Below, one piece after another: positions 41,783 to 45,636 of a DNA stretch of 64,000 bases. The notes below the pieces were generated by a model. It did no database searches and was not told the DNA's origin. It saw only the letters and a list, made by a program, of their open reading frames with translations. The first letter of the stretch is position 1; the number at the start of each line of letters is the position of its first letter. Source of the DNA: Vibrio sp. JPW-9-11-11 (GTDB lineage: Bacteria > Pseudomonadota > Gammaproteobacteria > Enterobacterales > Vibrionaceae); contig NZ_SZQJ01000003.1 in NCBI RefSeq assembly GCF_013369335.1, positions 124,001 through 188,000 on the forward strand. The letters run 5' to 3'. The translations under genes and the position numbers were made by a program.

Positions 41783-42970
41783 ATGGCGAGCATTGAAGCT
41801 GCACTAGCCGAGATTAAGCGCGGTGTTGATGAACTGATTCCAGAAGAAGAACTGATTGCCAAGCTCAAAGAGGGGCGTCCTCTGCGCATTAAATTGGGGG
41901 CCGATCCAACGGCGCCAGATATCCATTTAGGTCACACAGTTATTTTTAACAAGTTGCGTGCATTTCAGGAGCTCGGTCATGACGTTACCTTCCTGATCGG
42001 CGACTTTACCGCCATGGTCGGTGACCCAACTGGTAAAAACAACACTCGTCCGCCTTTAAGCCGTGAAGATGTGCTGCGTAATGCTGAAACCTATAAAGAG
42101 CAAGTGTTTAAGATCTTAGACCCAGCCAAGACTAAAATTCAGTTTAACTCTGAGTGGTTATCAGAGTTAGGTGCTGAGGGTATGATTCGCTTGGCGGCGA
42201 ACCAAACAGTAGCACGTATGCTAGAGCGTGATGATTTTAAAAAGCGTTATGCAGGCGGCCAACCTATTGCCATCCATGAGTTTATGTATCCACTCCTACA
42301 AGGTTATGACTCAGTAGCAATGGAGACGGACGTTGAGCTAGGCGGTACTGACCAGAAGTTCAACTTGCTAATGGGTCGTGAGCTACAAAAAGCCAACGGT
42401 CAGAAGCCTCAGGTTGTGCTTATGATGCCACTTCTTGTTGGTCTTGACGGCGAGAAAAAAATGTCGAAGTCAGCCAATAACTACATCGGCATTAGCGAAG
42501 CGCCAAGTGAGATGTTCGGTAAGATCATGTCGATCTCAGATGACCTGATGTGGAACTACTACGATCTCTTGTCATTCCGTCCGCTTGATGAAGTGGCGAA
42601 GCTAAAAGCTGATGTGGAGGCGGGTCAGAACCCACGTGATGTTAAAGTGGCACTCGCGAAAGAGATCATCGCACGCTTCCATAGCCAAGCAGATGCCGAT
42701 GCAGCTGAGCAAGAGTTTGTAAACCGTTTTGCTAAGAACCAAATCCCTGACGAAATGCCAGAGTTTGAGTTTGAAGCGGGCCTACCAGTTAGCAACCTGC
42801 TCAAAGAATCGGCACTGTGTGCCTCTACTTCAGAAGCGATGCGTATGGTTAAGCAAGGCGCTGCTAAAATTGACGGTGAAAAAGTCGCAGATTCTAAGTT
42901 CGCCCCGCAAGCTGGGACTTACGTATTCCAGGTCGGTAAGCGCAAGTTTGCTCGCATCACTATCAAGTAG
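41783..42970 (+). CDS. tyrS: Tyrosyl-tRNA synthetase
   Basis: Class I aminoacyl-tRNA synthetase that charges tRNA-Tyr, 395 residues. HIGH motif is HLGH near 47; the KMSKS loop KKMSKS is at 225-230; a C-terminal S4 RNA-binding domain (about 333-395, [29 protein letters not shown]) is present. The sequence is of the TyrZ-like type seen in vibrios. Start ATG 41783 follows GGGAGTGAAC. A single gene with a strong terminator. Confidence 0.96.
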
Positions 42971-42990
42971 TGGGTGTGGTTTGTCTGCTC

Positions 42991-43018
42991 AAAAAGCGCC
43001 TCTCGGGCGCTTTTTTTA
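42991..43018 (+). terminator. tyrS terminator
   Basis: AAAAAGCGCC / GGCGCTTTTT perfect stem with loop TCTCG and a seven-base T run. It isolates tyrS from the mgtE leader that starts about 70 bases later. Confidence 0.9.
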
Positions 43019-43052
43019 TACCTTTCTCAATCGGTGAGAAAAATTTCCCTTC

Positions 43053-43081
43053 TTGACACAATAACCACTGTTTTCTCTTAT
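43053..43081 (+). promoter_or_regulatory. Sigma-70 promoter of the mgtE leader
   Basis: TTGACA (perfect -35, 43053-43058), 17-base spacer, TCTTAT (43076-43081, 4 of 6 for -10). The predicted transcription start near 43088 gives a leader of about 290 bases before mgtE. Confidence 0.65.
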
Positions 43082-43088
43082 CACATTT

Positions 43089-43381
43089 GCTATCATCGCC
43101 GCGCTGCCAGTTAGGCAGTTTATTCGGAGATTTCTATGAACAATATCGACCATCCTCCTAGTATGAGAGGGGAAAAATAGTCCGCTACGGTATGGTCGTC
43201 TTACGTCTCTACCTCAAGTGGTAGAGCATCCTTTCAATTGAACTGCATCCTCACGTTTTTCTCCTTTAAATTCTAGAATCAACACAGCTATATGGCTCTT
43301 AACATGGGTGGCATGCGCCTATGTTGTTCGTATGCGACTGTGTTTGATGGTCGTTACCAATTGCCAATCGGGAGATTCGCC
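43089..43381 (+). promoter_or_regulatory. Structured mgtE leader with competing pairings
   Basis: A 290-base leader. CTGCC/GGCAG hairpin at 43104-43118. The octamer CGACCATC (43147-43154), inside the leader peptide, can pair with ATGGTCG at 43192-43198 (7 bp) or GATGGTCG at 43346-43353 (8 bp), but not both. Further stems: CTCTACC/GGTAGAG (43207-43226), AACACAG/CTGTGTT (43281-43344) enclosing an AACAT/ATGTT hairpin of about ten pairs (43301-43325). The second ATGGTCG copy ends 16 bases before the mgtE Shine-Dalgarno GGGAG (43370). Not an M-box by eye. Confidence 0.6.
43136..43180 (+). CDS. Predicted 14-residue leader peptide of mgtE
   Basis: ATG 43136 lies seven bases after CGGAGA and reads MNNIDHPPSMRGEK with stop TAG 43178-43180. 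Acidic and proline residues (IDHPP) resemble the kind of sequence in the Salmonella mgtA leader peptide, where such codons make translation sensitive to Mg2+. Codons 4-7 overlap the segment that pairs with two alternative downstream sites. Confidence 0.5.
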   Translation: MNNIDHPPSMRGEK

Positions 43382-44227
43382 ATGACGGTAATGAGCAATA
43401 CATACATCGAAAATAGCCCTAACTTTTCTCAAGAGGAAATTGGCGCCGCTCGCAATGCGTTTTTGCAGTACGATCAGGCTCAGCAAGTGCATTTACTGAC
43501 GGTGATGCCGGTGGAAGAAGCGGTCGCGATCCTGCATCACTGTTCGGTCGGCTATGTGCAACACCTTATTTCGGCCCTAGAAAATCAGGGGCACGATAAA
43601 CTGGCGCGTCACTACGCGCATCAACTGGGGTTTATCCTCTCAGAAGTGGAGACGCCCAGTGGCTACTTAGCGACATCGGTCTTTGAGCATGTCAAACAGC
43701 GTATTGGTTGGATCATTGCATTGGCGCTGCTTGGTATTGTGTCTGGATTAATCATTGCACAGTACGAAGATACGCTGAGCCAACTCGTGTTGCTGGCGGT
43801 GTACATGCCAGTGATTGCAGCGGCTGGAGGGAATACTGGTACTCAAGCGGCCACTTTAGTGATTCGCGCTTTGGCGACGGGTGAGTTACGCAAACGTCAA
43901 TGGCTTGCGGTACTTTGGAAAGAGAGCCGCGTAGCGATATGTCTTGCGTTGGCGATATCCATGGTGATGATCGGGCGTATTTTGATCTTTAGCGACTCAA
44001 GCAGCGCTGGTGGCTTTAATTTAAACACCATTGCACTAGCGATTGCTGTTGCATTGTTTATTCAAGTGACAATGTCGACCACCCTTGGTGGCTTACTGCC
44101 CATTTTAGCCAGGGTGTTTAAATTAGATCCGGCCGTGTTAGTGAGCCCTGTATTAGCGTCGATTGTCGATATCAGCGGAATGTGGGTCTACTTTACAGTC
44201 GTGAACTATTTTTTGGGCATTGCCTGA
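43382..44227 (+). CDS. mgtE: Short MgtE-type magnesium transporter lacking CBS domains
   Basis: Probable Mg2+ channel of 281 residues. Start ATG 43382 is preferred over an in-frame ATG at 43292 because GGGAG lies seven bases upstream and the extra 30 residues would run through leader hairpins. The protein has a shortened N-domain (about 1-100), no CBS pair, and then five helices (about 112-278). The pore signature AAGGNTGTQAATLVIRALATGE and the C-terminal LVSPVLASIVDISG (Asp263, the equivalent of the ion-site aspartate of Thermus MgtE) are intact. Full MgtE has about 450 residues, with CBS domains that close the channel at high Mg2+. Its last 22 bases overlap dacB on the other strand. Confidence 0.88.
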   Translation: MTVMSNTYIENSPNFSQEEIGAARNAFLQYDQAQQVHLLTVMPVEEAVAILHHCSVGYVQHLISALENQGHDKLARHYAHQLGFILSEVETPSGYLATSVFEHVKQRIGWIIALALLGIVSGLIIAQYEDTLSQLVLLAVYMPVIAAAGGNTGTQAATLVIRALATGELRKRQWLAVLWKESRVAICLALAISMVMIGRILIFSDSSSAGGFNLNTIALAIAVALFIQVTMSTTLGGLLPILARVFKLDPAVLVSPVLASIVDISGMWVYFTVVNYFLGIA

Positions 44228-45636
44228 CTGAACTTAATCACTTCTTGATAGAACAAGGTTTCAAACTGAGTAATGGGTGCGATGCGCTTCGGGGCATCGC
44301 TACTGGGTTTAGGGGGGTGATAATCTGCGACAAACTGAACAAACAAAGTGCTAGGTTGGCCTTGTTTATCTAATCCGAATCCCGCCATGTTGTAGGAGCC
44401 ATAGACAGAGCCGCTTTTAGCGATCAGTTCCCCTTTGATCGGCGCTTTGCGCATGCTGCGGCGATATTTGAGCGTGCCGTTGGTGCCCGATTTTGGCATG
44501 AGAGCAATCAGATTAAGTTGATCATCATGCTGCCATATATAGCGCAGGACTTTCGCCATTTCTTCACTGCTAAAACGATTGTTACGTGATAAACCACTGC
44601 CGTCGGCAAGGGGGAGTGAGTCAAGGTTGACCCCCGTATGGGCGAAGATAATCTGTTTGAGCGCCTTGATCCCGTTGCCAAAACTGCCTGGTTGAATATA
44701 AAAGGCGGCCCCAAGCGCTTTAGTTAAGTTATCAGCAATTAAGTTATCTGACTTTTGCAACATGGTAGCGAGTAACTCGGGTAAAGGCGCAGAGTGATGG
44801 GTTGCCAGTACGCGTGCTTTGCTCTGTTTGACGCCCACTTTTATCTCACCCTTGAGAGTGATGCCTAACTGGGAGAGAAAAGAGTGCACCATTCTTTGGG
44901 TGTATAGCGCAGGATCTTGGATAGCGAATTTTAGCGGTAACGGTTTACTGCGGCTCTGTAGGCAACCTTGCAACTGGTAATGATTGTCGGGCGAAGAGAG
45001 CAACTCCAAATCACATTGGGTACTGTCGCGTTCTATTTTTGAGACTGATTTTGCGATCGTAGTGACGTAAATCGGTTGATGTTCGGGCACATAGACTCGG
45101 GTACGCCCGTCTTGCTCCGTGTAAATAGAGGCTTGTACGCAGTTGCCATCAAGCGCAATGGCGGAAGCGGGGGCACTGTAGCAAACCCCAAGAATATCCC
45201 AAGGCCAGCCTACAGCACGGTCATAGCCGGTAAAGGCACTGTTTTCTAGCCATAGGTCTCCCTCGATAGCATCGATGCCGTTTTGTTTAAGCTGCCCCAA
45301 TAGGCCTTTTAAATCACCACTGGTTAAGGTTGGATCGCCGCCAAAACGGATGATGATATCTTTTCCTGACTGTTCGAGTTGAGTATGAAAACGAAATTGG
45401 TCACCAAGCTCTAACTTGGCCGCTAGGGCGGTAACGAGTTTTAAGGTGCTAGCGGGGGGGAATAGCTGCTGCTGATTGTCCGTTTGTTGGTAGATGTTCG
45501 ATTGCTCGAGACTCTCGACACGAGTAGAGACACGGCTGCCTTGTGGCAATACCTGCATCGATGAACTCGCCGAGGCAAAAAAGCTGAACGACGAACAAAT
45601 AATGGTGGCAATGAGCGTGTAGCAACAACGTAACAT
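44206..45636 (-). CDS. dacB: D-alanyl-D-alanine carboxypeptidase/endopeptidase (PBP4)
   Basis: Periplasmic low-molecular-weight class C PBP of 476 residues that trims and cuts peptidoglycan peptides. Signal peptide about 1-23 (LIATIICSSFSFFASASS). Active site: Ser63-x-x-Lys66 (STLK), SDN (KSDNLIADN near 298), and the KTG-equivalent KSGS near 417, with an S13-family insert between. Start is ATG 45636. It is transcribed towards mgtE, with 22 bases of overlap at the 3' ends and no terminator seen. ompU lies upstream with its own terminator. Confidence 0.93.
   Translation of the reverse strand: MLRCCYTLIATIICSSFSFFASASSSMQVLPQGSRVSTRVESLEQSNIYQQTDNQQQLFPPASTLKLVTALAAKLELGDQFRFHTQLEQSGKDIIIRFGGDPTLTSGDLKGLLGQLKQNGIDAIEGDLWLENSAFTGYDRAVGWPWDILGVCYSAPASAIALDGNCVQASIYTEQDGRTRVYVPEHQPIYVTTIAKSVSKIERDSTQCDLELLSSPDNHYQLQGCLQSRSKPLPLKFAIQDPALYTQRMVHSFLSQLGITLKGEIKVGVKQSKARVLATHHSAPLPELLATMLQKSDNLIADNLTKALGAAFYIQPGSFGNGIKALKQIIFAHTGVNLDSLPLADGSGLSRNNRFSSEEMAKVLRYIWQHDDQLNLIALMPKSGTNGTLKYRRSMRKAPIKGELIAKSGSVYGSYNMAGFGLDKQGQPSTLFVQFVADYHPPKPSSDAPKRIAPITQFETLFYQEVIKFSQAMPKK

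Follow-up and report, generated by a model that had tools for sequence, protein, structure and literature searches.

A conserved leader open reading frame with overlapping RNA pairings upstream of a short mgtE gene in Vibrionaceae

The analysed window is a 64,000-nucleotide stretch of the genome of Vibrio sp. JPW-9-11-11, in which a short mgtE gene follows tyrS. The gene (43382–44227, plus strand, like all the features described below) encodes a 281 aa protein whose MgtE pore domain was recognised by Pfam (PF01769, E 7e-32, residues 142–273); the NCBIfam model TIGR00400 matched below its cut-off and only over positions 271–449 of 450. An in-frame ATG at 43292, 90 bases upstream, lengthens the raw mgtE ORF to 311 aa, and an annotation choosing this ATG as the start would hide the putative switch. 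The tyrS–mgtE interval comprises an extended −10 element, a 5′ hairpin, a 14-codon open reading frame (ORF) with its own Shine–Dalgarno (SD) sequence and a conserved mgtE start region.

The tyrS terminator, read by eye at 42991–43017, is located upstream of the extended −10 element TGCTATCAT (43088–43096), the likely promoter of the mgtE transcript. A good sigma-70 promoter had been proposed here in a sequence-only reading of the window. The promoter scanner found no sigma-70 site on either strand over 42800–45500, and the TTGACA at 43053–43058 sits 32 bases ahead of the −10 at 43091; the part that stands is the extended −10 element, as TG precedes the best −10 in 100 of 151 loci versus 28 of 151 shuffled upstream sequences. 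The predicted 5′ end of the transcript carries hairpin H1 (43104–43118), which is changed on both sides at 5/5 pairs and has 82.4% of cells paired. The ribosome-binding site of the leader ORF, GGAG (43126–43129), has invariant columns in alignments A1 and A2. The ORF itself, MNNIDHPPSMRGEK, occupies 43136–43180, from the ATG at 43136 to the stop codon TAG at 43178–43180, and its codons 7 and 8 (43154–43159) encode Pro-Pro. No intrinsic terminator was found on the plus strand between the leader and mgtE by a scanner that also misses the tyrS terminator, and this result is partly a by-eye reading.

M-box riboswitches are found in the leaders of Mg2+ transporter genes. The impression gained from the letters that an M-box core is missing was borne out by a search of the window with all families of Rfam 15, which gave no match at the gathering score to any known riboswitch or other family. 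The M-box model (RF00380) matched neither at this score nor up to E 5 within 42970–43420, where only sRNA models appeared, at or overlapping the tyrS terminator. The M-box and the other Rfam families were rejected as the identity of the element for lack of a match.

An MgtE-like match is present in 195 of 196 genomes of the genus. From part of these matches 110 loci were taken, three of which (L102–L104) had no MgtE match in the piece, leaving 107 that were judged. The 14-codon leader with its own ribosome-binding site, as read in the window, is in place there, and a leader ORF (ATG, GGAG, 8–40 codons) was found in 104 of the 107 MgtE-homology loci, all 104 reading M...D-x-P-P; L099 (from the same genome as L223), L100 and L101 had none. 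Loci L100–L102 (G082:C2, G052:C1 and G007:C2) are second short MgtE copies, 60–66% identical, in leader-carrying genomes, and the leader pattern was not found upstream of the second or distant copies L100, L101, L103 and L104.

The pattern used to choose a larger set of 153 rows required an Asp codon, [CA]A[TC] and two CCN codons. On these rows Asp and Pro-Pro cannot be counted without circularity, since the pattern demands them, and the counts were therefore made again on the 107 MgtE-homology loci; synonymous counts are valid because the pattern left the wobble bases of Asp, His/Asn and Pro free. The rows were kept from 171 loci and correspond to 150 genomes (L177, L184 and L218 repeat L098, L097 and L096); loci L135 and L164–L223 had been picked by the leader model itself (R1, see below). 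The 18 dropped loci consist of L099–L104 and 12 with a D-x-P-P leader, in some cases read by eye on the reverse strand, that the pattern missed owing to a GTG start, DQPP, DYPP, DSPP or the lack of an in-frame ATG.

R1, a covariance model that covers the leader half and was derived from 50 loci, matches 220 of 329 genomes of the family and 7 of 13 genera, with a single match per genome, under strict filters that can miss some. A sample of the order gave matches in 26 of 394 genomes, 24 of the same genus (own genome included). Outside the family R1 matches G242, ahead of MgtE in a different neighbourhood (1 of 11 in that genus). The match in G483 (E 0.006) was taken as chance, its locus L136 having no mgtE in the ORF list. 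Among the matches listed, an exact-pattern scan found V. harveyi, V. coralliilyticus, V. furnissii, V. splendidus, Photobacterium damselae, Salinivibrio costicola and Enterovibrio norvegicus. At least 118 loci came from pattern scanning, and the 12 non-Vibrionaceae records among them were set aside as chance matches, as 0/12 match R1 versus 8/8 of the exact-pattern Vibrionaceae loci tried as controls. Within the genus sample, 131 of the 133 genomes with a strong short-MgtE match carry the element (the sets were compiled by hand); the MgtE of the two that do not, G016 and G167, is 54% identical. Judged by sequence comparison, the leader element is real, conserved across Vibrio, Photobacterium, Salinivibrio and Enterovibrio, and wider than first noted.

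In the 104 leaders of the MgtE-homology loci, codon 5 is always GAC (104/104) and codon 6 is CAT (101) or AAT (3); CAC is used in L180, one of the dropped leaders. Codon 7 is CCT (86) or CCC (18), and codon 8 is CCT (79), CCC (21) or CCA (4). CCG occurs at codon 8 in other genera, while codon 7 is always CC[C/U]. Leader codons 2–6 are nearly frozen at synonymous sites and the C-terminus varies freely. His is replaced by Q, Y or S in some of the D-x-P-P leaders that the pattern missed. Pro-Pro is conserved at the amino-acid level, since it is found in 104/104 loci while its wobble bases vary; the comparison thus points to peptide-level selection at Pro-Pro and RNA-level selection on the neighbouring codons. 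Loci L096–L098 (G171, G164 and G135) carry the leader MSN[AT]DNPPSSRGEK before an MgtE of 68–69% identity; the 700 bases upstream contain no tyrS.

Two features of the leader-ORF switches of Mg2+ transporters are present: a short ORF, conserved and equipped with an SD of its own, ahead of the gene, and alternative pairings that involve this ORF, as helices A, B and C all overlap it. The leader region folds better than its shuffles (z −2.2; 2 of 100 shuffles did as well), and the minimum-energy fold contains helix B, formed by an octamer within the leader and GATGGTCG, and helix C, from the leader end to about 43255–43267. Pairs were counted in A2, 57 of the 153 rows selected by length, leader type and divergence and free of long-leader, Photobacterium and Enterovibrio rows. 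In swap tests strands were exchanged between lineages, which served as groups, on samples of 58–70 rows; helix C went through two such tests, with narrower strands in the second.

The 5′ strand of helix B is the octamer CGACCATC (43147–43154), in which codons 5–6 are synonymously frozen; its 3′ strand, GATGGTCG (43346–43353), is invariant, with 99.3% of cells paired. This distal pairing had been proposed for the window and proved to be conserved, with 8/8 positions paired in 134 of 150 genomes, a count whose weight rests on the partner because the leader pattern that picked the 150 fixes most of the octamer. Double changes were found at 0/8 pairs in the 57 loci of A2, which thus says little for or against B. 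The swap test gave little signal (native −12.9 versus −12.4 kcal/mol, native better in 54 of 62). One lineage-level compensatory change was seen: the DNPP leaders of three genomes (L096–L098) have the octamer partner GGTTGTT, for which counting by eye gives 7 pairs, including two G-U, in the best register, and helix A is not detectable in them. Helix B is short in DQPP leaders, and L223 is without a B partner.

As the competitor of this pairing the sequence-only reading had named ATGGTCG (43192–43198). The match to the octamer is present here, but a 7-base partner past the stop exists in 1 of 150 genomes, this one alone, and it was rejected as a general competitor; of the two partners of the octamer, conservation across species holds for the distal one only. 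Sequence comparison indicates that the general competitor is helix A, in which a CGGTATTG-like sequence past the stop, not a second copy of the octamer complement, pairs with leader codons 2–5. The outline of a switch before a short MgtE, coupled to a leader ORF through mutually exclusive pairings, is thereby retained in its leader coupling and distal pairing and altered in its competing partner. The strands of helix A lie at 43141–43148, where pair counts and the swap test bear on it, and at 43188–43195, overlapping ATGGTCG; runs of at least 7 pairs, G-U counted, occur in 131 of 150 genomes. Native strands were better than swapped ones in 46 of 58 rows (−11.7 versus −9.7 kcal/mol), with double changes at 1/8 pairs. 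In the swap-test sample helix A is unsupported in the g116, g120, g124 and DNPP lineages and weak in NTT leaders.

Helix C and a hairpin at the mgtE start (hairpin F) are features absent from the earlier reading. The 5′ strand of C, AGAGGGGAAAAAT (43166–43178), is the end of the leader ORF, and the 3′ strand, GTTTTTCTCCTTT (43255–43267), is also complementary to the mgtE ribosome-binding site. The helix came from duplex prediction; in A2, 4/10 pairs are doubly changed and 97.5% paired. With wide strands the swap test gave −15.5 versus −13.9 kcal/mol (native better in 42 of 62), and with narrower strands −14.3 versus −12.3 kcal/mol (64 of 70; Wilcoxon p 1e-10, for rows that are non-independent). 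Helix C is rebuilt with different letters elsewhere, as GGTGGGAAATAAC with GTTATTTCCTTCC in G242, with one mismatch, and as GGGAAGC with GCTTCCC in an Enterovibrio-type genome; in several lineages (long leaders, g116, g120) it is no better than shuffled sequence.

Hairpin D (43207–43226) has both-side changes at 7/7 pairs, so that both H1 and D covary at every pair, and in the 57 loci the structure taken as a whole surpasses each of 500 shuffles as well as the slid controls, the shuffles ignoring relatedness. It is followed by a C-rich, G-poor stretch (43227–43254), a possible Rho-loading site by its base composition across 122 loci. Arm E (AACACAG...CTGTGTT, 43281–43344), read by eye, ends directly before the B 3′ strand and is weak across species: in 147 loci its longest stem is 6.9 versus 5.8 in shuffled sequence and reaches at least 6 in 78% versus 54%. 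In one Vibrio clade (L078, L089–L092) arm E is enlarged, by eye, by near-tandem units around CTCTTGGTGCG. Helix A together with B or C cannot be judged by folding, because the folds ignore pseudoknots.

Hairpin F encloses the ribosome-binding site and start of mgtE. Its 5′ strand, TCGTTACC (43351–43358), shares TCG with the B strand and pairs with GGTAATGA (43387–43394) in mgtE codons 2–5, at 8/8 positions in 135 of 150 genomes (G-U counted). Inside it, hairpin G (AATC-GGGA-GATT, 43366–43377) holds the mgtE ribosome-binding site GGGAG (43370–43374) and is nearly invariant, with 100% of cells paired. Codons 2–3 of mgtE are frozen: ACG is used at codon 2 in 109 of the 115 rows with Thr, and GTA at codon 3 in each of the 147 rows with Val, whereas variation is free from codon 6 on. 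The F pairing is kept although TTACC and the SD are 5 to 85 nt apart. In L075, L077, L082, L083, L085 and Photobacterium-type loci, hairpin-like inserts separate the F 5′ strand from the SD hairpin, with both kept intact. Double changes were seen at 1/8 pairs of F, and its swap test gave no signal (native better in 32 of 62). The case for B and F is made by conservation and folding, with hardly any covariation.

In folding models, helix B is predicted to take three bases (TCG) of F and so weaken it. With the B strand blocked, F falls from −20.3 to −13.2 kcal/mol, a loss of about 7, and from 7.2 to 3.5 pairs; at least two F pairs are lost in 86 of 94 distinct sequences. The accessibility of the mgtE AUG is unchanged when B is taken (0.51 and 0.51). 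The ribosome-free ensemble contains on average 4.0 pairs of B, 11.2 of C and 4.0 of F (61 sequences). With a ribosome at initiation, Pro7, Pro8 or the stop, the same 61 sequences give 0.03, 0, 0 and 1.08 pairs of B and 6.1, 5.2, 5.2 and 4.8 of F, respectively. Against the proposed switch, the accessibility of the mgtE SD hardly shifts, from 0.63 with no ribosome to 0.64 (initiating), 0.55 (Pro7), 0.54 (Pro8) and 0.56 (stop).

These models do not support the proposal that a ribosome near the leader stop would cover the first partner of the octamer and free the octamer for the distal one. Masking the stop region lowers the expected pairs of helix C from 11.15 to 0.07 and those of the octamer with GATGGTCG from 3.99 to 1.08 (means of 61 sequences). 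When the last sense codon occupies the P site, the standard ribosome footprint ends here at about 43191, just short of 43192–43198.

It seems somewhat probable that the fate of the ribosome on the 14-codon leader decides mgtE expression, drop-off at Asp-x-Pro-Pro meaning ON and completion OFF. The components of this reading found by sequence analysis and comparison are the ORF, its Asp-x-Pro-Pro core, the covarying C, D and H1, the complementarity of A and B and a potential hairpin F. At low Mg2+ the ribosome would stall and drop off at Asp-x-Pro-Pro, which would leave the rest of the leader bare; C and then B could form, F would open and mgtE would be made. If the leader is completed, B and C would be held apart, A would re-form behind the ribosome and F would stay closed, and the C-rich stretch would be open to Rho, turning mgtE off. 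The ON state needs drop-off rather than a lasting stall, because a ribosome parked on Pro-Pro covers the octamer. Mg2+ or proline may be the signal; Mg2+, a role of Rho and the direction of the switch are suggested by analogy. The direction and the Mg2+ signal are drawn from the mgtL and corL leaders, where the transporter is lowered when the leader is translated efficiently, and from reports on ribosome destabilisation by acidic residues with prolines and on slow Pro codons at low Mg2+.

According to the portions consulted of the papers on mgtL, corL and mgtQ, translation of the leader ORF is inversely related to the Mg2+ transporter, ribosomes are destabilised by acidic residues combined with prolines, and low Mg2+ makes the Pro codons CC[C/U] slow (PMC11282234, PMC11552253, PMC8092293, PMC6335274). 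The same portions report mixed results for mgtQ, where destabilising residues raise mgtB and removal of the start codon lowers it. The direction is not uniform among the precedents, since the mgtQ start-codon mutation lowered the transporter gene. The element may work like these three leaders, a likeness of functional class. As depicted there, mgtL of mgtA (Salmonella, E. coli) shares the short leader ORF, the N-terminal acidic residues and prolines, the inverse relation to the transporter and a Rho site; however, mgtA encodes a P-type ATPase and the peptide (motif EPDP) and RNA are different, whereas here the leader codons could open a conserved start hairpin. The corL leader of corA likewise has a leader ORF, alternative folds and a pyrimidine-rich Rho site, but a single N-terminal proline, and the portions consulted describe no helix from leader codons to the start hairpin of the gene. 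A further case is mgtQ before mgtB (Salmonella), a tiny ORF with ribosome-destabilising residues and stems 1:2 and 3:4 versus 2:3, with the ribosome-binding site in 3:4; there the region after the ORF opens the ribosome-binding-site stem while the ribosome is on region 1, whereas here the leader codons themselves would be the opening strand and a second helix would capture the leader end.

The mgtE motif (SRC-65-1) of Thioalkalivibrio, compared by its description, is also a structured RNA before mgtE, in which a stem has the SD and AUG at its base; it differs in being reported only from Thioalkalivibrio and in being a riboswitch candidate, with no leader ORF mentioned in the portion consulted (PMC11109978). 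No description of the present element was found among the results listed for the open-licence literature searched, including the portions consulted of Vibrionaceae annotation and RNA-seq papers (PMC2330054, PMC3505737). In enteric bacteria, mgtA, corA and mgtB are known to be subject to leader-ORF sensing, and on MgtE it would be a separate case; if the proposal is true, cells, including many marine bacteria, repeatedly use ribosome failure as a gauge of Mg2+.

Control may instead be transcriptional: the completed leader would keep C open, Rho would load on the C-rich stretch and stop transcription before mgtE, and B and F would be secondary. Rho sites are C-rich and G-poor, and the base composition fits, as C exceeds G in 146 of 147 loci over the 60 nt after hairpin D versus 49 of 153 upstream of the promoter, and the segment that separates D from helix C and belongs to none of the proposed pairings has mean C 0.283 and G 0.080 in 122 loci. 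In the portions consulted of the four papers on enteric leaders cited above, mgtL and corL are reported to be Rho-dependent, although one of the papers reports that no Rho termination was detected for mgtA in E. coli. Transcriptional control would leave unexplained why F and G are frozen at the mgtE start, and it is considered possible but rather unlikely. Less probable still is an anti-SD mechanism, in which a ribosome on the leader end would free the C 3′ strand TTTTTCTCC to pair with the mgtE GGGAGA, helix C acting as an anti-sequestor. The predicted pairing of the SD with the segment from the C to the B 3′ strand does rise, from 0.04 to 0.19 at Pro7 and 0.18 at the stop (mean, about 60 sequences), but the effect is small, and, judged by eye, not every C 3′ strand in other genera makes a good anti-SD sequence.

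The nested B, C, D and E arms resemble a junction, and their very strong primary conservation could suit a ligand- or metal-binding riboswitch at the B–C–E junction with an incidental ORF. Rfam gave no match, however, arm E is variable, the frozen bases are mostly in the ORF and start site, and Pro-Pro is kept despite its varying wobble bases; such a riboswitch appears improbable. A working small protein encoded by the leader, with RNA pairing as a by-product, would account for the conserved start, SD and N-terminal peptide, but is hard to reconcile with the free C-terminus, the synonymously frozen codons 5–6 and the covarying helices A and C, and is very improbable.

The leader also precedes mgtE genes that lack the pore, which tells against the main reading and calls for caution over Mg2+. 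In 12 of the 84 rows with enough sequence (69 rows were short) the gene ends short of 200 codons; together with L188 (G028), which has a DHPP leader frame without ATG and a 119-aa MgtE N-domain ORF behind it, this gives 13 loci with a pore-less gene behind the leader and products of 93–134 aa. In the genus sample, 7 genomes have the element and only the N-terminal part of MgtE. The cut products comprise the N domain, followed in most cases by a single membrane-like stretch (by eye); two of them have no Pfam match. The Salinivibrio N domain has a dN/dS of 0.08–0.18 where dS could be estimated, several dS values being near saturation, which indicates purifying selection. As the Salinivibrio gene lacks the channel, the switch cannot control a channel there, and either the N domain has a role of its own or the switch is a relic. 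Retention of the switch over a channel-less MgtE makes the role of the N domain alone testable.

Tentatively, and with rather less confidence than the ribosome-fate reading itself, the element may be a ribosome-completion sensor that arose apart from mgtL in Vibrionaceae. Its ORF would be caught twice by a nested fold, codons 4–7 by B and codons 11–stop by C, so that mgtE would stay off unless ribosomes fail at Asp-x-Pro-Pro. The sensor would have outlived the channel and, in Salinivibrio and some Vibrio, would still drive a pore-less N-domain protein.

A Photobacterium damselae gene annotated as MgtE (A0J47_RS13535) is listed as 5.35-fold up at 1% versus 3% NaCl in Table 2, the portion consulted, of PMC10308900; its identity with the leader-borne copy is only possible. 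Among the cut genes, mgtE is shortened to 108–134 aa in the Salinivibrio-type loci L169, L171, L174, L195 and L198 and in the Vibrio-type loci L106–L110, L188 and L192, and the product of L170 stops at 93 aa.
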